From contig NZ_JAALJI010000014.1 of the NCBI RefSeq assembly GCF_011064595.1, forward strand, positions 62,001-126,000: a stretch of DNA of 64,000 bases, read 5' to 3'. The notes beneath the pieces were generated by a model. The model worked only from the letters and a program-made list of their open reading frames with translations, was not told the origin of the DNA and did no database searches. The stretch's first letter is position 1. The number at the start of each line of letters is the position of its first letter. Origin of the DNA: Paludisphaera soli. Its GTDB lineage: Bacteria; Planctomycetota; Planctomycetia; Isosphaerales; Isosphaeraceae. Positions 16,451 to 31,833 of this stretch are shown one piece after another. The position numbers and the translations under genes are program-made.

Positions 16451-17034
16451 TCGACGCGAACTTTCGGCTCTGCGGCGCCCTCCGAAGGGGAGGCGGGCGA
16501 TCGACGCCGGGCGAACCCGGCGCGGGCGTAGTCGCAGGGCGCGGTACCCGGCGACGCGATGCGCGGAGTGGGAAAAAATGCCGGAAAGCTTCGCCCGGAA
16601 CGTCCACGACGTACGTACTGGAGTCGGCGGCGCCGTCGGGGCACCGCGGCGATCCGTGAGAGGCTGGGGCTTCCGGTTCGCTTGACAGATTCGCGACGGC
16701 GGGGTTGTAATGGCGATCGACGACTCCAGACCACCAACGTGTCACCCGTCGTCGAGAGCGGCTTGCCCTGGGAGACCCATTCGTCCGCCTTCCGGACCCC
16801 TCGCTCGCTTCGCCGACCTTCGCGGGATCCCTCGCCAGGTCCAGCCCTCCCCTTTCGCCTCGCAATCGTCCCGTTGGCAATACGGTCGCGCCTTGAGCCG
16901 GAGCGGGGCGTCGCGCGCCTTTCCCGCACCGGCCGAATCGGGATCCTCTCCTCTCCGAGCGACCGATTCGCCGACTCGATCTCCTCTCGGTGGGCAAACA
17001 GCCTGAAACAACGACCTACAGGAGGATCCTAGTC
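16451..17034. other. Leader/promoter region of the prkA operon
   Basis: About 580 bases without a credible gene, upstream of prkA. It contains a sigma-70-like promoter candidate (separate entry) and ends in a consensus ribosome-binding site. The resulting leader of about 320 bases is long; no known riboswitch fold was recognised in it. Confidence 0.5.
16682..16711 (+). promoter_or_regulatory. Candidate sigma-70-type promoter for prkA operon
   Basis: An exact TTGACA -35 box is followed after 18 bases by TGTAAT, five of six matches to TATAAT. It points toward the PrkA kinase gene about 320 bases downstream. This is a motif reading only; planctomycete promoters often differ from consensus. Confidence 0.42.
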
Positions 17035-19092
<2,058 letters not shown>

Positions 19093-19555
19093 GGACTCGC
19101 CGCGAGCCCCTGGAGCCGCGCCGGGCTTTCGTCCGGCCGGTTCGAGGGGCCGAGACCGGTAGAGAGGTCGCGTCGCCCCGCCCGCGAGGCAGGCATGGGC
19201 AGCCTGCGTTCCGGGCAGGGCGAGGCGAAGTGACATCGCTCGATCCCGCGAAACCGACGATTCCGCGGGCCGGCTTGATGACCGAGGGATGCCCGGCCTA
19301 CAATTTGCCGTTGAGACGTCGATCGATCCTTCGACCCGGGAAGCCGGATCTCGCCGATCGTTGCGAGCCGCGATCTCAACCCACCTCCATCGTCACCCGG
19401 CCGCTACGCCTCGACCCGTCCCGGATTTCCACCCTCGAACGTTTCAACCTGCTCTTTGCCAAACGGATTCCGGCGGATCTCTGATCTATCCGGAGTATTC
19501 GTCGTTTCGTCCGCGTCGGGGCCGTCGCGGCGGGACGGCCGCGTCCCCGGCCGGG
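19093..19555. other. Gap between prkA and the DUF444 gene
   Basis: About 460 bases, long for an operon of this type. It holds some GC-rich inverted segments (around 19183-19225) but no T-rich terminator. A second promoter for the two downstream genes is possible. No gene was recognised here. Confidence 0.35.
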
Positions 19556-20701
19556 ATGCGAATCAACAAACCTGCGAGCGGCGGGGGCTCGAGAGCCGTG
19601 GTGCGAAAAATCGATCGCGACGCCAATCGTTTCAAGCAGATCGTCCGGGGCAAGATCAAGTCCGACCTGCGGAAGTACATCACGCACGGCGAACTGATCG
19701 GCAAGACCGGCGGCGAGTTCGTCTCCATCCCGCTCCCCCAGATCGAGATCCCCGAATTCCGTTACGGGGACAAGAATCGAGGGGGCGTGGGGCAGGGGCC
19801 CGGCGACGTCGGCACGCCCATCGGACGCTCCGGCGAGGGCGAATCCGGCCCCGGCGCGGGCGAGGCCCCGGGCCAGCACATCCTCGAGGTCGAGCTGACC
19901 ATGGACGACCTGGCCCAGATCCTCGGCGAGGAACTGGCCCTGCCGCGCATCGAGCCCAAGGGGCGGGCGAACATCATCGAGGAGAAGGACAAGTACACGG
20001 GCATCCGCCAGGCCGGCCCCGAAAGCCTGCGGCACTTCAAGCGGACCTACAAGAAGGCCCTGAAGCGCCAGATCGCCTCCAGCCAGTACAATCCCCGCGA
20101 CCCCCTGGTGATCCCGATCCGCGAGGACAAGCTCTACCGATCGTGGAACCCGATCACCTCTCCCCAGTTCAACGCCGTGGTCCTCTACCTGATGGACGTC
20201 TCCGGGTCGATGACCGACGACCAGAAGGAAATCGTCCGGACCGAAGCGTTCTGGATCGACACCTGGCTCAAGAGCCAGTACGACGGCGTGACGACCCGCT
20301 ACATCATCCACGACGCGGTCGCCAGGGAGGTCGACGAGCACACCTTCTACCACACCCGCGAGAGCGGCGGCACACGCATCAGCTCGGCCTACAACCTGGC
20401 GAACAAGATCATCGAGGAATCCCACTCGCCGATGGACTGGAACATCTACGTCCTCCACTTTTCCGACGGCGACAACTGGGGCGAGGACAACCGCCAGTGC
20501 ATCGGCCTCCTGCGCGACCAGCTCCTGCCCAAGTGCAACCTCTTCGGCTATGGGCAGGTCGAGAGCCCCTACGGCTCCGGAGAGTTCTACCGCGAGCTTG
20601 AGGAGGCCTTCGAGGCGGTCCCGAACATGGCGCTCTCCGAGATCCGGAACAAGGAGGGCATCTACGAGTCGATCAAGGAATTCCTGGGCCGCGGACGCTG
20701 A
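19556..20701 (+). CDS. yeaH: DUF444 / YeaH-YhbH family VWA-like protein
   Basis: A 381-residue protein of the YeaH/YhbH family. After a basic N terminus ([20 protein letters not shown]) and the family block [17 protein letters not shown] comes a Gly-rich segment, then [10 protein letters not shown] von Willebrand A-type domain follows with a MIDAS-like [13 protein letters not shown] (about 225), the conserved [17 protein letters not shown] and [13 protein letters not shown]. It acts in the cytoplasm with the PrkA kinase as its phosphorylation target or adaptor. The ATG lacks a strong ribosome site, but the length and N terminus match YeaH; a GTG twelve codons later (VVRKIDRD) is the alternative. 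Confidence 0.9.
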
Positions 20702-20774
20702 GCAGGGCCGGGGAAGGAGGCCCAGCGGGCCGCCCCGAACCGACCACCGACGAATCGAGGGAGGGGCCGGAACC

Positions 20775-22328
20775 ATGTCGATCGCCAACACCCACGACCT
20801 GCCCGCCGACCTTCGGGCCATCCAGCTCGAAACCGAAGGCCACGCCCGCGACTACGGGCTCGACTTCTACGAGACGATCTTCGAGGTCCTGGACTACGAC
20901 GAGATCTCGGAGATCGCCGCGTTCGGCGGCTTCCCGACCCGCTATCCCCACTGGCGGTTCGGGATGGAGTACCAGCAGCTCTCCAAGGGCTACCGCTACG
21001 GGCTCCAGAAGATCTACGAGATGGTGATCAACAACGACCCCTGCTACGCCTATCTCCTGCGGTGCAACCAACTCGTCGACCAGAAGCTCGTGATGGCCCA
21101 CGTCTACGGGCACAACGACTTCTTCAAGAACAACATCTGGTTCAGCCAGACGAATCGCAAAATGATGGACGAGACGGCGAACCACGGCACCCGGATCCGA
21201 TCCTACATGGAGCGCTTCGGCGAGGACGCCGTCGAGAGCTTCATCGACTCGTGCCTCTCGCTCGAGAACCTGATCGACGTCTACTCGCCCCACATCAAGC
21301 GCCGCGAGCCCGTCGATCGATACGACTTCCAAGAGGGCGAGGAGGCCGATCCTCAGACGTCGAAGTTCCAGAGCAAGGCCTACATGGACGGCTTCATCAA
21401 CCCTCCAAGCGTCCTGAAGGAGGCCCAGCTCCAGCAGGAGGCCGAGCGTCAGAAGGCCAAGCCCTCCGCGTTCCCCGAGCAGCCCGAGCGTGACGTCCTT
21501 CTATTCCTGCTGGAGCACGCCCCGCTCAAGACCTGGCAGCACGACGTGCTTGCGATCATCCGCGAGGAGGCCTACTACTTCGCCCCGCAGGGCCAGACCA
21601 AGATCATGAACGAGGGCTGGGCCTCCTTCTGGCACTCCACGATCATGACCCAGAAGATCCTCCACCCGTCCGAACTGCTCGACTACGCCGACCACCACTC
21701 GGGCACCATGGCCACGCAGCCCGGACGCCTGAATCCATACAAGCTCGGCATCGAGCTGCTGCGCGACGTCGAGGAGCGCTGGAACAAGGGCCAGTTCGGC
21801 CCCGAGTGGGAAGAGTGCGACGACTACGAGACCAAGCGACGCTGGGACACCCAGGCGGGCCTAGGGCGAAAGAAGATCTTCGAAGTCCGCTGCATCCACA
21901 ACGACGTGACCTTCATCGACACCTTCTTGACGCAGGACTTCTGCAAGCGCTATCAGCTCTTCAGCTTCAAGCACAACGATCAGAACGAGCTCTACGAGAT
22001 CGAGAGCCGCGAGTTCAAGAAGATCAAGGAGCGATTGCTCTTCAACCTGACGAACTTCGGCCAGCCCATCATCCGAGTCAGGGACGGGAACTATCGAAAT
22101 CGAGGGGAACTCTACCTCGGCCAGGAGCACTTCGGCGTCGACTTACGCCTGGATTACGCCCAGGACACCATTCGTCATCTTCACCGCCTCTGGACGCGTC
22201 CGGTCCACCTGGAAACGACCGTCGACGGGCGGCCGACCTTACTATCGTTTGACGGAACCGATCACTCGATCCGCCCTTTGGGAGGTGTTTCCCATGACGC
22301 TGAGCCGAAAGATCGCCGCCGCGCTTGA
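20775..22328 (+). CDS. spoVR: SpoVR family protein (YcgB-like)
   Basis: A 517-residue SpoVR/YcgB protein. Recognisable blocks are the N-terminal [49 protein letters not shown], the HxxxxH-like region around [14 protein letters not shown], and [20 protein letters not shown]. The biochemical activity is unknown; in Bacillus loss affects the spore cortex, and in non-sporulating bacteria the gene follows prkA and yeaH, as here. The start is chosen after GGGAGGGG. Its last 35 bases overlap the next gene in another frame. Length is typical of the family. Confidence 0.93.
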
Positions 22329-22776
22329 CGAGAACACGAGGGCCTACAACCTCCCCTGCGTCGTCACGCTCGACGACGGGCCCGACCGGATCAACCTGGA
22401 GATCACGTCGCTCGACTCGGTGGGCGTCGCCCTGGACGCCCTGGAGTACGTCGCTTCGGATCGCAAGGAATGGACGCCTGAGGCCCTGAACGCCTGGGGC
22501 GAAAAGCTGTCGAAGAGCGTCTCCTACCTCCTGGAACCCCTCAAGGTTCTGGAGGTCGACGGCGGCGCGGGGCTGGCGCAACTCCGAAGCGCGTCCCCGA
22601 CCGTTCGCGGCGACGTCCGCGGGTACTACGAGGTTCGACTCGATCGGCAAGGGATCTGCCGGTTCGAACGGTACGTCGTCGACCCCGGCGGACGCGGCCG
22701 CCGACGCACGCCATGCCACCTGACCCGCGAGGTGGTCGAGCGACTCGCCGACGACATCGCAGCCGGTTCGAGCTAA
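22294..22776 (+). CDS. Hypothetical protein overlapping spoVR
   Basis: A 160-residue soluble protein ([20 protein letters not shown]...). It starts inside the 3' end of spoVR with a strong GGGAGGTG site, so it is translated with the prkA-yeaH-spoVR set. Visible blocks are [43 protein letters not shown] and a regular [20 protein letters not shown]. The last looks like a beta-hairpin rich fold, but I do not recognise the family. It ends with [13 protein letters not shown]. Being bound to this conserved trio suggests a shared stress or starvation function. Confidence 0.75.
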
Positions 22777-22822: not shown

Positions 22823-23110
22823 TCAGAGCGCCGCCGGCTCTCCATTTCGAATGTGATCCCCCCGCGTCATCTCGATCGGGTCCGCCGGCGAATGGCAGCT
22901 CGACCGCGTTCGGACCACCTTCGCCGCGACGTGATAACCGCCGCATCGAGGGCATCGATAGACGCTCAAGCGACGATTTCCCAGGTCGCGACCGGTGGCG
23001 CGGTTCCAGATCTCCATCGCCACGAGCTGCCCCTGCGCCCCCTGCCGATCGGCATGGAAGAGGCGTCGGCAGGCCGGATCGAACATGGGGAGGATCATTT
23101 GAGGCGACAT
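22823..23110 (-). CDS. Small zinc-ribbon-like protein
   Basis: A 95-residue protein with N-terminal MSPQMILPMFDPACRRLF, then a helical stretch (GQLVAMEIWNRATGRDLG) and a one-knuckle zinc ribbon, YRCPRCGGYHVAAK. The knuckle is C-x2-C with a following His, and single Cys residues lie elsewhere. The start is chosen because CAGGAG stands ten bases upstream; the open frame reaches further upstream with non-coding-looking sequence. Such proteins occur in planctomycetes without a known role. It converges on the prkA set with a 46-base gap holding a short GC hairpin (ggccggg/tccggcc). Confidence 0.6.
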   Translation of the reverse strand: MSPQMILPMFDPACRRLFHADRQGAQGQLVAMEIWNRATGRDLGNRRLSVYRCPRCGGYHVAAKVVRTRSSCHSPADPIEMTRGDHIRNGEPAAL

Positions 23111-23467
23111 GACCGCGAATCTCCTGAGTCGATAGGGTTCCCCGCGCCTCCCTGCCGCCGCGAGCCCGATCCGCGTCCCCCGTCGAGGGGCGGAAAAATC
23201 GACCGGCGCCCGCACCCATGAATGCCGCACCGAGTGCATCGTTCTAACGCGGGCCCCCTATTCCGGTGACTCGATTCGCATCGACCTTCGCGACGCCAGG
23301 TTTTCCAGGAGTCGTGAGCCTGGCGAGAAGCTTCCCATGAAGCGCCCAAAGTCACTCATCGGGAGGGTTTCTTGAGGGCCCGACGTCGAGGGGGTACAGT
23401 AGGGTGGGCCCGGGGAACATGCGTCGTTTTTTTGCAGACCGTCCGCCTGGGCGGTTCAGGATCCGGC
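23111..23467. other. Divergent intergenic region
   Basis: About 360 bases between the zinc-ribbon gene and the divergent kinase gene. It should carry both promoters. A T-run (cgtcgtttttttgcag) lies just upstream of the kinase, but no hairpin before it was seen. No gene recognised. Confidence 0.35.
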
Positions 23468-26065
23468 ATGCTCGATCCGAAGACATCGCGATTCTGGAAA
23501 GCGGGGCTGCAGAGCGGGCTGCTCGACGTCGAGTCACTCGCCCGGTGCTGGGAAGCCATCCCGCCCGAGAAGCGGCACGCATCGGAGCACCTCGACCGCA
23601 GGTTGGGCCGGCAGGCCGTCCAGCTCGGCCTGCTGACCCTGTGGCAGGCCCAGCAGCTCCTCGCCGGCCGCGTCACCGGATTTCTGGTCGATCGCTACGT
23701 CTTGCAGGACCTGATCGGCCAGGGAGGCATGGGTCGCGTGTACCTCGCCAGGGACAAGCGATTGAATCGCCAGGTTGCGTTGAAAATCCTCTCGCCCGAG
23801 CGGATGAACAACCCCCGCGCGATCGCCCGATTCCAGCGCGAGGCGAAGGTCGGCGCCCAACTTCAGCACGAGAACCTGGTCCGCCTGTACGACTTCGGAG
23901 AATCCAACGGGCGACACTTCCTGGTGATGGAGTTCATCGAGGGCCGAAGCCTTGGCTTCTTCATCGCCACGGAGGGGCGGATCCCATACGCGCTGGCCGC
24001 TCGGTTCTGCCAGCAAGTCGCCCTGGGGCTGGACCATGCGCACCGCAAAGGTCTGATCCACCGCGACGTGAACCCGTATAACGTCATCGTGACGAACGAG
24101 GGGGTCGCGAAGCTGGCGGACATGGGACTGGCGATCGATTTGGCCGATGAGGGGCAGGTCACGCGGGACGGCGCCACCGTCGGCACGTTCGATTACGTCG
24201 CGCCGGAGCAGGCCCGCCATTCGCACTCGGCCGACATCCGGAGCGACATCTATTCGCTCGGCTGCAGCCTGTATCACATGATCTCCGGCCAGGTGCCGTT
24301 CCCGCACCCCAGCCTGGCGGAGAAGCTGTTCGCCCACCAATCCCAGGATCCGGCCCCGCTCTCCGCCATGACCCCCGACCTGCCGCAGGGGCTGGTCGAG
24401 GTCGTCGCCAAGATGATGCGAAAGAAGCCCGAGGAACGCTACCAGACGCCACTGGAACTGGCCGCCGCGCTTCGGCCCTTCGCGGAAAAGACGACGTCCG
24501 ACCGCGAACCCGTCCTGACGGCGATCGTCGCGGAGGTCGGGCAGGCCGAGGCGAGACCCGAGATCGCGCCTCCGGAGGTGCCGACGAGTACGACAGGGGG
24601 CGGCGACGGAGGCGCCGGGACTTCCGGAGAGTTTTCGCTCGGCCTGGAAATCCCTCCCGAGCCTTTGCTCACCGACGTTTCTCGAACGTCCAAGCCCTGG
24701 TTCGGTTCGAGCGGAGGCCGAACGTCCTCCTCCGGCAGCGGGACGAGTTCAAGCGGATCTGCCTCGACATCGGGCGTCTCGGCCTGGCACCTCGCCACGG
24801 CGGCCTCGACCGGACGAGGTCGCTGGATCGCGGCGGCGACCCTGGTGTCGGTCCTCGGGCTTTATGTGGGGACTTCCGCCATCCGGAGGTGGTGGCCGAT
24901 CTCATCGGACGATTCGACTCCGCTCCGCAAGTCGGCGTCCTCGGCCGTCGGGAAGGATTCCGGGCGTGCGAGCCCCCCGGAGTTCTCCTGGGGAAAAGCG
25001 TCGATCGCCGTCCTCGGGGTCGACGGGAAGATGAAGGCGGCACCCGACCTCCTCAGGGCGATGGAGACGGCCCTTGGGGGCAAGGGCGTCGTGGTGTTCA
25101 AGAGGGGGGAGCCGATCGAATTCCAGGCGGACGCGGGCCTGAGCCTGTCAGGTCGCGGGAGCTTGCAGCTGCAGGGGGAGGGCGGGACGCCCACGGTCCT
25201 GAAGATCCGCCTGGACGGGAAGAAGCCTTTCCTGTCGCTGGGGTCGAGCGTCAACCTGGTGTTGAAGAACCTGACTCTGGAAGTCCACCGAAGCGGCGCC
25301 ACGGAGGGAGCCGCCGCGACGCCGCCGCTAATCATGACCGCCGGCAAGTGCGAGCTCGATCACTGCGAACTGCGGGCCGCGCCGGCGGGCGGCTATCCCG
25401 GCTCCTGCGCCGTCCGGACGGATGGGAGCGGGATGAAGATCGATCATTGCTGGTTCGAGGGCTTTGAAACCGCCTTCGAGATCCACGCCCTGGCCGGCGC
25501 GACCCACGTGATTCGCGAATCCATGTTCGTCCCGGGGGGTACGCCGTCCGAGGCGGTGAAGGCCGGGAAATCGGTCCGGACGGGGTGGGCAGGCAAGATC
25601 CGTTTCGAGGGGGGCGGCTTGAGAGACGGATCGCGGTCGCTCCGGCTGGAACGCTGCACGGTTTCGGGCGAGGGATTGCTGCAACTGGTGGATTTCCCGG
25701 ATCGCTCGAGGCTCGACCTGGAGGTCGTTTCGTGCGCAGTGAAGGTGGACCGGCTCCTGGATTGGAAACCTGCCACGCCCGAGGTTCCGCTCACCCGAGA
25801 CGTGGTAGCCTGGAAAGGAGTGGAGAATCAGCTCGACGTGGTGGGCAATTCCTGGGTCTCGGGCCCGTCGAGCGTCCCTCCGATCGCCGGGCTCGACGAA
25901 TGGTCCGCGCTCTTCTCCGAGACGCGACCGATCCGTTCGGCGATCCAGTTCGCGATGGGGCCGACGACGCCCGAGGGGCGCCTCTCCTCGCGAGCGTACG
26001 CGATCCTCAACGCGGACGCCTCCTCGCCGGGCGCCGACGCCGAAGACGTCGGCCCGCGGCCCTGA
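23468..26065 (+). CDS. Membrane Ser/Thr kinase with beta-helix-like ectodomain
   Basis: An 865-residue Hanks-type kinase. The first 75 residues contain the planctomycete kinase helper segment (AVQLGLLTLWQAQQLLAGR, then FLVDRYVLQDLIG). The kinase domain (about 78-345) has GQGGMGRVYLAR, VALKIL, HRDVNPYNV, ADMGLAID and VAPEQA. The catalytic loop has Asn where most kinases have the Lys of HRDLKPxN, and DFG is DMG, so catalysis may be altered. A Ser/Gly-rich linker (about 410-435) leads to one membrane helix (about 455-475). The outer 390 residues have short repeating beta segments (SLSGRGSLQLQGEGG, SVNLVLKNLTLEV, KCELDHCELRA, GMKIDHCWFEGF), typical of right-handed parallel beta-helix folds. The start follows AGGAT. 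Confidence 0.88.
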   Translation: MLDPKTSRFWKAGLQSGLLDVESLARCWEAIPPEKRHASEHLDRRLGRQAVQLGLLTLWQAQQLLAGRVTGFLVDRYVLQDLIGQGGMGRVYLARDKRLNRQVALKILSPERMNNPRAIARFQREAKVGAQLQHENLVRLYDFGESNGRHFLVMEFIEGRSLGFFIATEGRIPYALAARFCQQVALGLDHAHRKGLIHRDVNPYNVIVTNEGVAKLADMGLAIDLADEGQVTRDGATVGTFDYVAPEQARHSHSADIRSDIYSLGCSLYHMISGQVPFPHPSLAEKLFAHQSQDPAPLSAMTPDLPQGLVEVVAKMMRKKPEERYQTPLELAAALRPFAEKTTSDREPVLTAIVAEVGQAEARPEIAPPEVPTSTTGGGDGGAGTSGEFSLGLEIPPEPLLTDVSRTSKPWFGSSGGRTSSSGSGTSSSGSASTSGVSAWHLATAASTGRGRWIAAATLVSVLGLYVGTSAIRRWWPISSDDSTPLRKSASSAVGKDSGRASPPEFSWGKASIAVLGVDGKMKAAPDLLRAMETALGGKGVVVFKRGEPIEFQADAGLSLSGRGSLQLQGEGGTPTVLKIRLDGKKPFLSLGSSVNLVLKNLTLEVHRSGATEGAAATPPLIMTAGKCELDHCELRAAPAGGYPGSCAVRTDGSGMKIDHCWFEGFETAFEIHALAGATHVIRESMFVPGGTPSEAVKAGKSVRTGWAGKIRFEGGGLRDGSRSLRLERCTVSGEGLLQLVDFPDRSRLDLEVVSCAVKVDRLLDWKPATPEVPLTRDVVAWKGVENQLDVVGNSWVSGPSSVPPIAGLDEWSALFSETRPIRSAIQFAMGPTTPEGRLSSRAYAILNADASSPGADAEDVGPRP

Positions 26066-26074
26066 GCCCCGGCG

Positions 26075-26521
26075 TCAAGGATTGTCGTCGCCGAGCAGGT
26101 GCTCGCTGGATCGAAGGATGCGCTGCTGGCGGGTGACGGATGCGATGGCGGCGGAGGGCGTCACGCTCTGGGCCTCGAGGTCCGCGAGGTTCGCCTGGCA
26201 GAAGGGGCACTCGACGACCTCCAGATGGAACTGGAAGTACGCGCCCAGGTCGGGATCGAGCGCGTCGAGCAGATAGCTCCCCAGCTGCTGGCGGGTCGGG
26301 CAGGTCAGCCGGGACCGGCGCCAGATGGCCCCCAGGGAATGGAGGTGGAAGTCGTCGCGATCGTTGCGGACGTCTTCCAGGCGTGCCCGGAGCGAGGCCG
26401 ATTCGCGAAGGGCTTTCTCGACGCGGGCCATCAGTTCGGGCGGCAGTCGATCGGCCAGGTAGGCGCGGAGCGTCTCTTCTTCGATCGCGGCCGGGCCTTG
26501 GGTCGGATCTTCACGACTCAT
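26075..26521 (-). CDS. Probable zinc-finger anti-sigma factor
   Basis: A 148-residue soluble protein with a helical N-terminal half (EETLRAYLADRLPPELMARV), then LTCPTRQQLGSYLLDALD and a His/Cys cluster FHLEVVECPFCQANL (H-x5-C-x2-C), resembling zinc anti-sigma domains (usual spacing H-x3-C-x2-C). No membrane helix is seen, so it would act in the cytoplasm. It lies seven bases after the ECF sigma gene and shares its operon, the classic partner position. The frame opens with a GTG one codon earlier; the ATG has AAGGG upstream. The assignment rests on position and the Cys/His cluster. Confidence 0.7.
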   Translation of the reverse strand: MSREDPTQGPAAIEEETLRAYLADRLPPELMARVEKALRESASLRARLEDVRNDRDDFHLHSLGAIWRRSRLTCPTRQQLGSYLLDALDPDLGAYFQFHLEVVECPFCQANLADLEAQSVTPSAAIASVTRQQRILRSSEHLLGDDNP

Positions 26522-26528
26522 CACGCCG

Positions 26529-27158
26529 TCACCCTTCGTTGAGTTCGTCGAAACTCATCCCCGCGCGGCGGGCCATGTCCTTGAGCCGGGCGATCGTCTG
26601 GAACTTGTAGCTGGCCACGGCCTGCTCGGTGAGGCCCAGCCGGCGGGCCACGTCCTTGTTGGCCCAGCCCTTCACGATCAGCAGCTCCATGCAGCGGATT
26701 CGGTCGAAGTCGCCCCGCCCGAGCCATTCGCGGACGAGGCGTCCCATCGATTCGCTGAGGAGCTGTTCCTCCTCGCGTCGACGTTCGCCGCTGCGGGCGA
26801 TGCTCGACGCGGCGCGGGCGCCGCCGGCCACCTCGTCGAGGGGCCGGCCGTGGTCGTCCGAGCCGAATTGGTCGATAGGCCGCCGTCCTTGCTTCCGGAG
26901 ATGGTCGGTCAGCTTGTGGGCGGCGATCGAGAACAGGTAGGCTTCGATGTCGCGCTTTTCGTCGTAGTGCGGCAGGCTCGTGAGGAAGCCGATGAACGTC
27001 TCCTGCACGACGTCCTCGCTCGCCGCGCGATCCCGCAGGCGGCTGTCGACGAAGGCGAGGAGCCTGCCCTCGAAACGCTCGATGAGTTGCCGCCAGGCCA
27101 GGGCCTTTCCCGATCGGACTTGTCGGACGATCAGGGCGTCGGATTCGGACGTCGCCAT
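26529..27158 (-). CDS. ECF-type RNA polymerase sigma factor
   Basis: A 209-residue sigma-70 family factor with only regions 2 and 4. Region 2 contains LIERFEGRLLAFVDSRL, the 2.2 block SEDVVQETFIGFLTSL and the -10 recognition helix around DIEAYLFSIAAHKLTDHLRK. A charged linker follows, and region 4 has the helix-turn-helix GWANKDVARRLGLTEQAVASYKFQ. Planctomycetes have expanded ECF groups linked to Ser/Thr kinases, and two kinases flank this gene, so phospho-signalling to this factor is plausible. It is followed at once by the probable anti-sigma gene. About 140 upstream bases should hold its promoter, often self-recognised. Confidence 0.92.
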   Translation of the reverse strand: MATSESDALIVRQVRSGKALAWRQLIERFEGRLLAFVDSRLRDRAASEDVVQETFIGFLTSLPHYDEKRDIEAYLFSIAAHKLTDHLRKQGRRPIDQFGSDDHGRPLDEVAGGARAASSIARSGERRREEEQLLSESMGRLVREWLGRGDFDRIRCMELLIVKGWANKDVARRLGLTEQAVASYKFQTIARLKDMARRAGMSFDELNEG

Positions 27159-27299: not shown

Positions 27300-27950
27300 T
27301 CAGCTGAGCATTTGGTAGATTAGCACGCCCGAGGCCCCCACAACGGCGGCCGCGGCCAGGCGGAGGCGGCTGGTGTAGTAGCCCTTGGTCGCCTCGTCCG
27401 CCCGGATGTATCCGGAGGTGGACGCCAGGCAGACCAGAAGGAAGCCGAACAGGGCCCCGAGCTTCAAGATCCGCTCGTGTACCACGTCGCCCTGGTAGGC
27501 GGCGATCAAGCGATCGCGTCGAGCGGCGTCGAACTCCGCGTCCAGGGCGGCGGTGTAGACCGTCCCGTAGGGCTTCTCCTCGGGGGTCACCCGGGTCTCG
27601 ACGACGAGATCGTCGACGAGGTGCCCCGGAGGGAGCCAGGACATCGGGACCTGTGGATCGAGCCAGGAACGCACCTCTTCCACGAGCTGGCGGCGGGCGT
27701 CGGCCTTGGCGCGCTCCTCGGTGGCGGATACCTGGCCCAGAACCTGACGCACCGTCCCTTCGTGATCGCTCGCGACGGTCCTGATGGATCGAGGCTCGCC
27801 GGCGTCGCGAGCGAATCGTGTGGTCAGGGCGCGGACGGCCCGGTCGATCCCCCCGTCAGGTCGCGAGACTTCAACTCGCGTCACCGAGACGAAAGAGAGC
27901 AGGATCAGGCCGACCCCGAGGAACAGCAGGAGTTGCAGCAGGCGTTTCAT
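27300..27950 (-). CDS. Membrane protein with extracytoplasmic domain, unknown
   Basis: A 216-residue protein with an N-terminal membrane anchor (LLQLLLFLGVGLILLSFVSV), an outside or periplasmic domain of about 120 residues, and two C-terminal membrane segments (ILKLGALFGFLLVCLAS and RLAAAAVVGASGVLIYQ). The soluble part has a helical block (TEERAKADARRQLVEEVRSWL) and short beta strands (VDDLVVETRVTPEEKPYGTVYTAALD). I do not recognise the family. It sits between the ECF sigma gene and a kinase gene on the same strand, so a signalling or envelope-stress role is possible but is inference. Confidence 0.75.
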   Translation of the reverse strand: MKRLLQLLLFLGVGLILLSFVSVTRVEVSRPDGGIDRAVRALTTRFARDAGEPRSIRTVASDHEGTVRQVLGQVSATEERAKADARRQLVEEVRSWLDPQVPMSWLPPGHLVDDLVVETRVTPEEKPYGTVYTAALDAEFDAARRDRLIAAYQGDVVHERILKLGALFGFLLVCLASTSGYIRADEATKGYYTSRLRLAAAAVVGASGVLIYQMLS

Positions 27951-28004: not shown

Positions 28005-29930
28005 TCACGCGGCCCGCGTCCGCCCCCCGGCCTTATCAAGGGTCTTCACGTATTCGGCGTATCGCGCGGCCTTCTCGCTCCAGGGGCTGACGAGCTGCAC
28101 CGCGCCGGCGATCATCATGGCGATCGCGGGCCCCTCCGCCTCGTGATGGGGCCAGAGCGGGAGCAGGGCTACGCTGACGAGGAGCGTCCACGCGAAGGGC
28201 AGGAGCCGGAACCGTTTCTTCCGATCGCGGACGGCCTGACCGTACCACCCCGAAGTCCCCGCGTAGAGGGCCGCGAAATAGGCGGGGGTGAGCGTCGCGG
28301 TGCGGGGGTCCATCAGGAGCCCCCGCGACAGAAGGTAGGCGCCGCCCCCCACGCCCGCCCCGAGCAGGGCCGACGCGAGGCGACGACCGATCGGGTCGAC
28401 TCCCCGAGCTTCCAGAACCTTGTTCATCACGAGGGCGCCCCAGGCGCCGAGGAGGGTGGTCCCGTAGAGAAAGACCAGCCGGGTCGTCTCATGCGCCGGA
28501 TCGACGCCGAGGGCGGCGGCCGCCGGCAGGATGAGCATGCCCACCAGGAGGGCCGACCAGAGCATGGAGGCGGTCGCCTCAGCGACGCACGCCCTCCCCG
28601 TCGGGGCCTGGGGGGGCTCGGGGGGTTGATACGCGGGCCGGAAGCCGCGATCGGCGGCGCCCGCCGGTTCGTCGAGCACCTGTCGCTCGAAGCCCGCTTG
28701 CCGGAAAGGCGCCGCGGGCCGCCGACGCGCCGAGGCTCCGTCGCGCATCCGTCGCCAGTCGGCGGCGAGCCGCTGGTGAAGAGCATTCGCCTTCCCCGGA
28801 GGCAGGGTGTCGGGGCCGATGTAGAAGACGGGCTCCTCGTCGTCGATCCGATGGACTTCCACGGGGTCGGGCGTGGGCGTCGCCGTCGAGGCGGCCGCGG
28901 CCCCCCTGTTCCCGATGATGCGGATCTCGGGGGCCCGGGGGGCGTCGCCGGGGAGAAGCAGGTCGTAGATCCGCGAGGGACGCTGGTTGGGGTCCTTCGC
29001 GAGGGCCCGCGAGACGATCTTGCGGTATTCCTCCGGCAGCGCCGCCACGTCCGGCCGCGCCGTCAGGTGCTTCATCAGGATCTCGTTGACGGTCTCGCCG
29101 TCGAAGGGGACCCGGCCGAGGAGCATCTCATAGAGGATCACCCCGACGGCGTAGACGTCGATCGGCTTGTTGTACTTCCCGGAGCCGATCTCCGGCGCCA
29201 TGTAATGGCACGTCCCGATGCTCTCGGAGTGCTCGCTGCCGTGGCTCGCGGTGATCAGCTTGGCGAGGCCGTAGTCGCCGATCTTGACCACGCCCTCTTC
29301 CATGAAGAGGTTCGCCGGCTTGAGGTCGCGGTGGACGACGCCGTGGTCGTGCAGGTAGGCGACGCCCTCGACGAGGCCCCGCAGCCAGTGCCGGACCTCG
29401 TCCGGTGGGAGGCCGCCGGGGTTCTCGCGGAGGACCTGCGCCAGGCTCGGGCCGGCGACGTATTCCATGACGACGAACGCGTCCCCCCCCTCGGTCGTCT
29501 TCAGGTCGAAGATCGTCAGGAGGTTCGGGTGCTTGAGGTTCATGCACTGGACCACGCCCCGGCGCTCGACGTCGAGGTTGCGGAGGATCAGCTTGAGGGC
29601 GACCTCCCTGCCGGAATCCGAGGTCGCGTAGTAGACCTCGCCGAACCCCCCCCGGCCGACGGCTCGCTTGATCGTGTAGCCTTCGAGCGGGCGGTCGCCG
29701 GAGCCGAAGGCGTAACGACCGCCGGGCTGCCGCATGGACGTGGAATCAAGCATGGGGACGTTTCCCGTCGGCTTTCCGGAGAGGAAGCCGGACGCCTCCT
29801 CTTCGTGATAGTGGACCGTCTCGTCGAGGTGGTCTTCGACCCGGTTCGCGGCCGTCGCGCCCATCGGTTGCTCCGCTCCAGGGTCCGGTAACTGTTCGCG
29901 TCGAGCCACGGTTCTGTCCTTCCGGCCCAT
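28005..29930 (-). CDS. Ser/Thr protein kinase with multi-pass membrane C terminus
   Basis: A 641-residue Hanks-type kinase. A disordered acidic N terminus of about 80 residues precedes the kinase domain (about 84-340) with GRGGFGEVYYAT, VALKLIL, catalytic HRDLKPAN, the magnesium motif as DYG instead of DFG, and YMAPEI. A Pro-rich linker leads to five or six membrane segments (SALLVGMLILPAAAALG, LYGTTLLGAWGALVM, LGAGVGGGAYLLS, LVSVALLPLWP, MIAGAVQLVSPW). Multi-pass kinases of this kind are common in planctomycetes, and the stimulus is unknown. An internal ATG at 29864 is an alternative start. Upstream on the same strand is an FHA protein, a natural phosphothreonine reader for it. Confidence 0.9.
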   Translation of the reverse strand: MGRKDRTVARREQLPDPGAEQPMGATAANRVEDHLDETVHYHEEEASGFLSGKPTGNVPMLDSTSMRQPGGRYAFGSGDRPLEGYTIKRAVGRGGFGEVYYATSDSGREVALKLILRNLDVERRGVVQCMNLKHPNLLTIFDLKTTEGGDAFVVMEYVAGPSLAQVLRENPGGLPPDEVRHWLRGLVEGVAYLHDHGVVHRDLKPANLFMEEGVVKIGDYGLAKLITASHGSEHSESIGTCHYMAPEIGSGKYNKPIDVYAVGVILYEMLLGRVPFDGETVNEILMKHLTARPDVAALPEEYRKIVSRALAKDPNQRPSRIYDLLLPGDAPRAPEIRIIGNRGAAAASTATPTPDPVEVHRIDDEEPVFYIGPDTLPPGKANALHQRLAADWRRMRDGASARRRPAAPFRQAGFERQVLDEPAGAADRGFRPAYQPPEPPQAPTGRACVAEATASMLWSALLVGMLILPAAAALGVDPAHETTRLVFLYGTTLLGAWGALVMNKVLEARGVDPIGRRLASALLGAGVGGGAYLLSRGLLMDPRTATLTPAYFAALYAGTSGWYGQAVRDRKKRFRLLPFAWTLLVSVALLPLWPHHEAEGPAIAMMIAGAVQLVSPWSEKAARYAEYVKTLDKAGGRTRAA

Positions 29931-30030: not shown

Positions 30031-31569
30031 TCAGACTCGGTTCGGGGCCAGCGGCTCCAGGCTGAATGAAAAGCCCTCGCCCAGCACGCTGGAGTTCATG
30101 GTCAGGGGCGCCCGCGACATGCATGGGCGGCCGTCGACCTCGAATCCACCCTTCGCCCGGCACCAGAGGGCGTCCCCCTGTCGATAGAGCACCACCGGGT
30201 CCCGGAGCGTCGCCGCCGAGATGTGCGCGTGGCTTTCCGGGCCCACGATGCAGGTTTCCGCCATCAGCAGGACGCCGTCGACCGCGAGGGGGAGGCGATG
30301 CCGGCTGACGATCGCGAGTCGGGCCGTGGCGCTGAACGGGCTGGGCTGCCGGAACTCCAGCTCGACCGTCGACCCCAGGCGGACGACGTCGCCGTTGCGG
30401 AGGACCGTCGGCTCGATCACGCGACGACCGTTCACGTACGACTCCTGGTGGGGCTCCAGCATGTAGCTCTCGCTCCCCCGGACCAGGGTCGCGTGCCTCC
30501 GCGACAGGTCCCCCATCAGGGGGACGTCGGCAGGGCCGTCCGGGCCGGCGCGGCCGAGCACGACGCGGTCGTCCAGGCAAACGAGGTAGCCGCCCACGGC
30601 GTCCGCCCAGAGCAGGAACCGGCCGGTGAGGCCATCGGTCGCGGCGAGCGCCAGCGGTCGGTCCGGCGCGGGTTCGAATCGGCGAGGGGCGATGGGATCC
30701 TGAAGCTTCGGGAAGAGGCGGCGTTCCACGTCCTTCCGAGGGGGATGGGGCTCGCCCTCGGGGCCGTTGTCCGGCTCCTCGGACCTGGTGATCGGGACGA
30801 CTCGCGGGGGATCGGGCTTGCGACGGGCCCACTGCGAGCCGCTGGAAGGCCCGATCGCCGCGATCTTCTGCCAGGCCTTCGCTCGCGCCTGGCGGGCGGC
30901 CGGATGTTCGGGAACGGTGGCGACCAGGGCTTCGGCGGCCGCGAGGATCTTCGGCCACTCCCCGTCGGAGAGCGCCGTGTAGAGCGCCTCGACCAGGGGG
31001 GCCGAGGCCTTCTGACGGGCTTCGAGTTCACCCCGGGCCGTCGCGACGGCGTTCTGGATGGTGATGGCTCCGGCTCCGGCGGCGAGCCGTTCTGCCCGGT
31101 CGAGGTGCTCGTGGGCGTGACCGAACTCGCCCCGGCGGGCGTCGCTCGCTGACTGTCGCCAGGCGTCGGCGATCTCGCGAAACCGTCGGAGCGAAGGCCC
31201 GGAGATCCTGTCCCGGGCCAGGGCCTCGACGCGGTCGAGGGCCCGGATCGGCTCGCCGACCTCGAGGTCGCCGCGAATCTCGTCGGCCATGAGGTCCGCC
31301 AGGCTCATCCGGGCCGCCGCGAGCGAGTCGGGAGGGCCCCCCAGGCGTTCGGCCAGCCTGAGGTCCTCGACGGCCCCGGCGAGGTCGTCGGCCGCTCCGC
31401 GCCGCGCCGCCCGGGCGATCAGGTCGAGGCCCAACCGCGATCGAAATTGGACCGCCTGATGATGATCGGCGACGTCGGGCCGACCCGCGAGGGCGTAGGC
31501 TTCCTCGAACCGCCCGGCCCGCGCGGCCTCTTCGGCCTGTCGCAGCACGATCCGCCATTGGCCCATCAT
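30031..31569 (-). CDS. FHA-domain protein with helical repeat N terminus
   Basis: A 512-residue cytoplasmic protein. The N-terminal 230 residues are Ala/Leu/Arg-rich helices that look like TPR-type repeats (AEEAARAGRFEEAYALAGR, EALVATVPEHPAARQARAKA). A proline-rich linker follows, then an FHA domain (about 320-410) with VVLGRAG, GDLSRRHATLVR and SYVNGRRV, the GR-S-RH-NG signature for phosphothreonine binding. A further domain of about 100 residues follows. The FHA protein probably docks on a phosphorylated kinase tail or substrate of the neighbouring kinase. The start MMGQWRIVL is chosen; the frame opens nine codons earlier at another ATG. Neither has a strong ribosome site. Confidence 0.88.
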   Translation of the reverse strand: MMGQWRIVLRQAEEAARAGRFEEAYALAGRPDVADHHQAVQFRSRLGLDLIARAARRGAADDLAGAVEDLRLAERLGGPPDSLAAARMSLADLMADEIRGDLEVGEPIRALDRVEALARDRISGPSLRRFREIADAWRQSASDARRGEFGHAHEHLDRAERLAAGAGAITIQNAVATARGELEARQKASAPLVEALYTALSDGEWPKILAAAEALVATVPEHPAARQARAKAWQKIAAIGPSSGSQWARRKPDPPRVVPITRSEEPDNGPEGEPHPPRKDVERRLFPKLQDPIAPRRFEPAPDRPLALAATDGLTGRFLLWADAVGGYLVCLDDRVVLGRAGPDGPADVPLMGDLSRRHATLVRGSESYMLEPHQESYVNGRRVIEPTVLRNGDVVRLGSTVELEFRQPSPFSATARLAIVSRHRLPLAVDGVLLMAETCIVGPESHAHISAATLRDPVVLYRQGDALWCRAKGGFEVDGRPCMSRAPLTMNSSVLGEGFSFSLEPLAPNRV

Positions 31570-31833
31570 GGTTGATTCGCCGCCCGGAGTGACCATGGGT
31601 TCTCACTCTCCGCCATCTTACGCTGGGTATCTGACGCCGCTCAACACGTCGAACGGGGCGTCGTGGGGGCCGAGATCCGTCCTCCGCCTGAGGCGACGTC
31701 GGCCGGTGTGGGGGCGGGGATGGCGGGCGGGACCGCCGGGCCGTCTCGCCGTGCGGAAACCGGAAGAAGCCGCCCGGCCGCCGCGTCATCGGGCGGCCGG
31801 ACGGCCTCGGGTGTCCGCTGTCCGCGGGTGGGC

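Follow-up and report, generated by a model that had tools for sequence, protein, structure and literature searches.

The window analyzed, a stretch of 64,000 nucleotides of Paludisphaera soli, contains a gene for a predicted single-pass membrane protein kinase, whose parts and downstream neighbors are the following:

23468..26065, + strand: kinase gene, 865 amino acids plus stop codon (open reading frame list, Pfam; start matched in the relatives L051 and L052)
23468..23683, + strand: N-terminal helical segment, residues 1-72 (helices at residues 8-65 of the model; mean pairwise identity among orthologues 0.55)
23684..24487, + strand: Hanks-type protein kinase domain, residues 73-340 (Pfam and PDB matches; mean pairwise identity 0.68)
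24059..24082, + strand: catalytic loop HRDVNPYN, residues 198-205 (translation, DNA pattern match, orthologue alignment)
24119..24127, + strand: metal-binding loop DMG, residues 218-220 (translation, orthologue alignment)
24182..24196, + strand: P+1 loop GTFDY, residues 239-243 (domain alignment)
24488..24823, + strand: linker of low conservation, residues 341-452 (identity 0.20 over residues 341-450)
24827..24883, + strand: single transmembrane segment, residues 454-472 (hydropathy peak)
24998..25864, + strand: extracytoplasmic domain, very probably a right-handed beta-helix, about residues 511-799 (model, Foldseek, structural realignment)
25865..26062, + strand: C-terminal tail, ending in GADAEDVGPRP (low model confidence)
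26075..26524, - strand: zf-HC2 anti-sigma-like protein, convergent (Pfam, NCBIfam, locus comparison)
26529..27158, - strand: ECF sigma factor with the sigma2 stretch ASEDVVQETF, convergent (Pfam, NCBIfam, locus comparison)
27300..27950, - strand: 216-residue protein, with no match in Pfam or NCBIfam but matched in relatives (locus comparison)
28005..29930, - strand: second Ser/Thr kinase, with the Lys-type loop HRDLKPAN (Pfam; loop match G000:C46:91310-91333, which is 29310-29333 of the window)
30031..31596, - strand: FHA-domain protein (domain search, locus comparison)

The start, strand and end of the kinase gene were those given in the first-pass annotation of this DNA, with the ATG at 23468 and the stop codon at 26063-26065. 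There is an in-frame TTG upstream, at 23372, yet the start at 23468 (MLDP...) recurs in L051 (Planctomycetales bacterium 71-10) and L052 (Isosphaeraceae bacterium KatS3mg108), both full-length relatives. From the N to the C terminus, the protein consists of the helical segment, the kinase domain, the linker, one transmembrane helix and the extracytoplasmic domain. The kinase domain matched Pfam PF00069 (Pkinase) with E=1.8e-48 and, in the PDB, PknB of M. tuberculosis with E=1.2e-56. Of 31 proteins (the window kinase and 30 orthologues), 28 had a hydropathy peak of at least 1.6 on the C-terminal side of the kinase domain, the peak of L091 being 1.24 and no value being obtained for L103 and the truncated L109. 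The structure model of the kinase, for which three sequences were aligned, was poor (pLDDT 61, pTM 0.45) and does not give the geometry of the active site.

The orthologues were collected with the ectodomain as the query, so they were sampled without bias toward the Asn of the catalytic loop. Matches were obtained in 31 of 59 genomes, the own genome included: 31 of the 37 Isosphaeraceae and none of the 22 from other families. Concerning the six Isosphaeraceae without a match, four genomes were less than 90% complete, while G011 and G024 were 92% and 99% complete, respectively. The match was single in 29 of the 31 genomes, and G016 and G034 carried an extra partial one. Among orthologues, the kinase domain had a mean pairwise identity of 0.68, compared with 0.29 for the ectodomain and 0.20 for the linker. 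In the own genome, 75 stretches matched the kinase query, some kinases being counted as two pieces, and all of them except the gene itself fell within query residues 36-375, i.e., the kinase-domain region. Another kinase gene of this genome, L016 (G000:C120:30796-31593), spans one in-frame TGA and is perhaps a pseudogene or the product of an assembly error.

Downstream of the kinase, the order is anti-sigma factor, ECF sigma factor, 216-residue protein, second kinase and FHA protein, the FHA family being a reader of phosphothreonine. The convergent anti-sigma/ECF pair was found at 13 of 30 loci, 12 of which also had relatives of the second kinase and 11 of the FHA protein. Of the 24 loci with sufficient flanking sequence, 11 lacked the pair, six other contigs being too short. 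In three of the loci devoid of the pair, both the second kinase and the FHA protein had relatives, which were in inverted order. Altogether, a relative of the second kinase was near at 15 of 30 loci (12 in the order of the window and three inverted). According to the passages cited from PMC8103513, in ECF factors activated by Ser/Thr protein kinases (ECF43 type) the DAED motif of sigma2 is replaced by uncharged residues. The neighboring sigma factor does not conform to this type: its motif, identified by eye, is ASED, with loss of the first Asp and conservation of Glu-Asp, as in all 13 loci. ECF43-type control by phosphorylation is thus probably not the case here, despite the replacement of the first Asp and the Ser next to it. 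If the kinase acts on the sigma/anti-sigma pair, the likelier targets would be the anti-sigma factor or the FHA protein. On the upstream side, genes for PrkA, DUF444 (YeaH-like) and SpoVR stand in a row (16990-22328), an arrangement kept in four of five other loci of the same genus. They are followed by an open reading frame at 22249-22776 (+ strand), matched in relatives and without a match in Pfam or NCBIfam, and by a small divergent one at 22823-23239 (- strand), just upstream of the kinase, with a CPRCGGYHVA motif, a best Pfam E value of 0.088 and a match on the same side at 11 of 30 loci.

The first-pass annotation had pointed out that the catalytic loop has Asn in place of the Lys of HRDLKPxN, and the substitution is real and fixed in the orthologue group. 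Asn202 occupies the position of PKA Lys168, and each of the 30 proteins whose loop could be read had Asn there (the window kinase and 29 orthologues; L109 lacks the catalytic loop and was left out), which, together with the long open frames, rules out a sequencing error or a decaying gene. The rest of the catalytic apparatus looks normal: beta3 Lys106, alphaC Glu125, HRD Asp200, metal-binding Asn205 and DFG Asp218 were invariant wherever covered in the set of 31 proteins, and so were the glycines of the G-loop. The kinase thus has the Lys-Asp-Asp triad of a Hanks-type bacterial kinase, which comprises beta3 Lys, HRD Asp and DFG Asp and serves as the criterion in the passages cited from PMC11032199 and PMC12599244. 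The latter define a pseudokinase as a protein in which one of these three residues is lost; judging from their invariance in the sequences, the window kinase would be ruled out as such by definition. In view of the same invariance, the earlier suggestion of a weak or regulatory kinase finds no support, although the activity may still be weak. On the other hand, the passages cited from PMC4702295 state that Lys or Arg is present at the place of PKA Lys168 in all EPKs (eukaryotic-type protein kinases), and that amino acids are probably not phosphorylated efficiently unless a base lies near the substrate; the Lys, or a nearby Arg, is described there as contributing to the action of a kinase on proteins. 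In that sense the window kinase falls outside the EPKs, with Asn in 30 of 30 proteins. Relocation of the base two residues downstream (+2) is ruled out in the window kinase, as the residue there is Tyr.

Concerning the metal-binding loop, its middle residue was Leu in 26 of the 31 proteins and Met in five, so that variation at this site is ordinary. The description 'DMG rather than DFG' is true of the window but limited to it and four relatives of the same genus, the other 26 proteins having DLG. DMG was accordingly dismissed both as a mark of weakness and as a functional oddity, and this part of the observation is ordinary.

Compared to 42 Lys-type kinases, the clade was distinct not only in the catalytic loop but also at the end of the G-loop, at several alphaC positions, after DFG and in the P+1 loop. 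Arg90, at the end of the G-loop, was present in 28 of 30 clade members, and it is possible from the alignment that it serves as a substitute base; the poor kinase model leaves it without spatial placement. Phe241 of the P+1 loop was found in 30 of 30 clade members in the domain alignment, while 24 of the 42 Lys-type kinases have Pro. Ile223, the residue after DLGLA, stands where 34 of the 42 have Arg or Lys. In PKA, the residue after DFGLA helps to bind the phosphate of the activation loop, so the activation of the clade kinases may also differ. The GTFDY P+1 loop and the Ile after DLGLA, instead of Lys or Arg, would suggest a different substrate or mode of activation rather than a broken enzyme.

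The occurrence of Asn in every readable relative, together with the conservation of the other catalytic residues, points to a protein that probably works as an enzyme, its active site being unusual. A rather unlikely alternative is a regulatory kinase fold that would bind ATP and signal by conformation, or by recruiting the Lys-type kinase at 28005-29930, with little or no phosphotransfer, slowness having been selected after the loss of the base. It would be in line with the disappearance of the Lys168-type residue from 30 of 30 readable proteins, with the additional loss of the basic residue after DFGLA, and with the presence of a second-kinase relative near 15 of 30 loci. However, the three residues that define pseudokinases in the passages cited from PMC12599244 are invariant, and so are the metal-binding Asn and the alphaC Glu, residues that a scaffold could do without when diverging to this extent.

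The ectodomain had been described as a series of repeated short beta segments of the parallel beta-helix kind, and this held up well. Its AlphaFold2 model, based on a three-row alignment, had a mean pLDDT of 69 and a pTM of 0.76. Over model residues 11-280, the means of ten-residue blocks were 59-91, all except one being at least 66, and values were below 50 from residue 294 onward. When the model was submitted to Foldseek, the matches listed were mostly beta-helix proteins, the best E value being 5.9e-3 (probability 0.98), with none below 1e-3 and query-length TM-scores of 0.16-0.41 among the matches listed. Realignment with VIA-align, which is a re-examination of Foldseek's own candidates, gave for the 50 matches listed Z values of 16.9-19.5 over 232-274 residues, with rmsd 3.1-6.3 and 8-16% identity, the top Z of 19.5 spanning 240 residues. 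The neighbors included polygalacturonases, tailspikes and PL6 lyases, among others. Since the model matches solved beta-helices over most of the domain, and taking into account its pLDDT of 69 and the weaker support from Foldseek, the fold of the ectodomain is very probably that of a right-handed parallel beta-helix. At the sequence level, it gave no match beyond chance in Pfam and nothing useful in the PDB (best E=0.92).

It had also been proposed that the domain binds polysaccharide, and a receptor whose beta-helix binds or cleaves a glycan, with the kinase reporting it, is a second alternative, which we consider unlikely. The structural neighbors listed are largely polygalacturonases, phage tailspikes, and pectate and alginate lyases, and there are conserved Trp residues toward the end of the domain, both of which agree with this proposal; but a common fold proves no function. 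In the ectodomain alignment of 30 members (the window and 29 of the 30 orthologues, without L101, which is cut by a contig end), only four columns were invariant (Ala, Phe, Trp, Trp), and Pro, Leu, Gly, Asn and Trp made up the nearly invariant ones. Neither kind of column contained a charged residue in these 30 sequences, so no family-wide catalytic center is visible and glycan sensing is a guess, against which the mean pairwise identity of 0.29 and the lack of a Pfam match beyond chance also weigh. Single members could nevertheless be active lyases or hydrolases.

The history of the substitution was studied in a midpoint-rooted FastTree tree of 101 kinase domains. L145, L148 and L149, which did not align as such kinases, and L138, whose match lies in a non-kinase frame, were left out, and L018 and L121 are one gene entered twice, both in the tree and in the Asn-type alignment. 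The orthologues formed one clade, with Lys-type kinases as nearest relatives. Judging from the topology of this tree, the change from Lys to Asn would have a single origin, in the clade's ancestor, and would have been kept since. The other HRDxNPxN kinases were scattered to many places, so the change looks recurrent, and other planctomycete kinases look to have gained the same Asn separately. In a DNA search of 392 Planctomycetota genomes, the pattern HRD-hydrophobic-N-P-x-N gave 60 matches, at least four of which are not such kinases, in 42 genomes, while the reversed control pattern gave three. The Asn form is rare: in 25 planctomycete genomes it had three matches versus 1170 of the Lys form, and in the own genome two versus 53. 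In that genome, no match was obtained with C, G or T as the first base of the codon at the Lys site, ACN, AGN and ATN being outside the search. The site varies elsewhere too, as shown by an Asn-type match in one of four genomes tried outside Planctomycetota and by Ser in two relatives from other phyla, L077 and L083. In the phylum of L087 (Nocardiopsis), the Asn form was found in one of 149 genomes drawn.

When the other Asn-type kinases were aligned, 20 of 26 rows (19 of 25 distinct genes) kept all five key residues. The second Asn-type kinase of the own genome, L018 (G000:C119:40351-41259), lies in a frame of 1210 residues and has the loop HRDLNPSN and a normal DFG; it is distant from the window kinase in the tree. 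L123, L124 and L125, from three genomes, form a separate kinase family with the loop HRD[VLI]NP[YF]N and a metal loop DLD (IIDLDFC) instead of DFG. L148 and L149 are kinase-like, have the loops YHRDLNP or HHRDLNP and did not align with Hanks kinases at E 1e-5; by eye, we take them to resemble the Kdo/WaaP type of lipopolysaccharide kinase.

The single origin in the tree, the one-base distance between Lys and Asn codons and the low-frequency recurrence of Asn elsewhere are also what would be expected if the substitution were near neutral, the Lys being dispensable at the working rate of this kinase and the ancestral change being inherited without functional meaning. We find this distinctly improbable, in view of the persistence of the Asn in 30 divergent proteins, with neither reversion nor any other change, though reversal takes only one base, and of what is observed at +2 in other Asn-type kinases. 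In these, once the duplicate (L018/L121) was removed, Arg or Lys occurred at +2 in 10 of 25, versus 1 of 42 Lys-type kinases (Fisher 1.1e-4), and on raw codons in 17 of 54 versus 1 of 203 (P 5e-12), both P values being too small because related kinases are counted repeatedly. The 54 Asn-type rows are the 60 matches minus two clade members and the four matches left out above (L138, L145, L148 and L149), 29 of them being read over 24 bases alone, and the 203 Lys-type rows, read by eye, are 150 listed of the 1170 from 25 genomes plus the 53 of the own genome. The enrichment suggests that the Lys168-type site matters. In the clade of the window kinase, +2 was Arg in just 3 of 30 members and Tyr in 18 of 30, so most of the clade does without a relocated base.

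It is rather probable, on sequence grounds, that the window kinase is an active single-pass membrane kinase of the Ser/Thr type, proper to Isosphaeraceae, with an Asn acquired once by an ancestor and a sensing beta-helix. The beta-helix, or its binding partner, would report a condition of the envelope or of the outside through the transmembrane helix, and the cytoplasmic kinase would transfer phosphate by means of its beta3 Lys, HRD Asp and DFG Asp, as is usual, these being all in place. The side chain that normally steadies the gamma-phosphate is positive; Asn202, which stands in its place, would hold this phosphate by hydrogen bonding. In such a predicted active kinase, the most likely consequence would be an altered phosphate chemistry or choice of substrate. 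Overall, this is a genuine variant, fixed in its lineage, of a known kind of enzyme, probably active and provided with a beta-helix receptor domain. More tentatively, and with the balance somewhat against it, Planctomycetota may harbor a recurrent 'Asn-loop' variant of Hanks kinases in intact, active enzymes, some lineages having a base at +2 like tyrosine kinases, and the beta-helix clade of Isosphaeraceae being mostly baseless and shifted in substrate or amino-acid preference. If true, this would contradict the claim that all such protein kinases have and need Lys or Arg at that position. A natural clade devoid of the Lys, together with scattered independent cases, some of which have a relocated base and others not, provide natural pairs, rather than dead mutants, in which the role of the residue is directly testable. 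Surveys based on the triad only do not single out the Asn variant; for instance, in the passages cited from PMC11032199, the kinases of Planctomycetota were scored as functional by the Lys-Asp-Asp triad. In the open-licence PMC literature, no mention was found of HRDLNP, HRDVNP or HRDINP, nor of PknB K140N, nor anything relevant on planctomycete or bacterial kinases with a beta-helix.

Concerning known systems, the bacterial pseudokinase families (DYD, DLHK and others), as described in the passages cited from PMC12599244, share with the window kinase an altered catalytic loop. In the DYD models a catalytic-loop Asn contacts the gamma-phosphate, those passages leaving unstated its equivalence to the position of Asn202. 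However, DYD proteins are described there as devoid of beta3 Lys and alphaC Glu, whereas the window kinase has both, besides HRD Asp and DFG Asp. Tyrosine kinases and the JH2 domain of JAK2 also lack a Lys168-type residue and, according to the passages cited from PMC4718504, use instead an Arg or Lys at +2, as seen in 10 of the 25 other planctomycete Asn-type kinases; the window kinase differs in having Tyr at +2, and in its clade only three of 30 members have Arg. Polygalacturonases, PL6 lyases and tailspikes resemble the ectodomain in the beta-helix fold predicted by the model, but at 8-16% identity in the 50 matches listed, and the ectodomain shows no family-wide charged center and is tethered to a kinase. 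In kinase domain (E=1.2e-56) and general layout, the window kinase is close to transmembrane Hanks kinases of the PknB/Stk1 kind (PDB 1mru). PknB has a single transmembrane helix and an extracytoplasmic C-terminal domain, both also features of the window kinase. The match to NCBIfam NF033483 (PknB_PASTA, Stk1 family) covered residues 72-349 alone and scored 302.5 bits, below the cut-off of 450, so the window kinase does not belong to that family. It differs from PknB in having HRDVNP instead of HRDVKP, a GTFDY P+1 loop and, by the model, a beta-helix where PknB has PASTA repeats.
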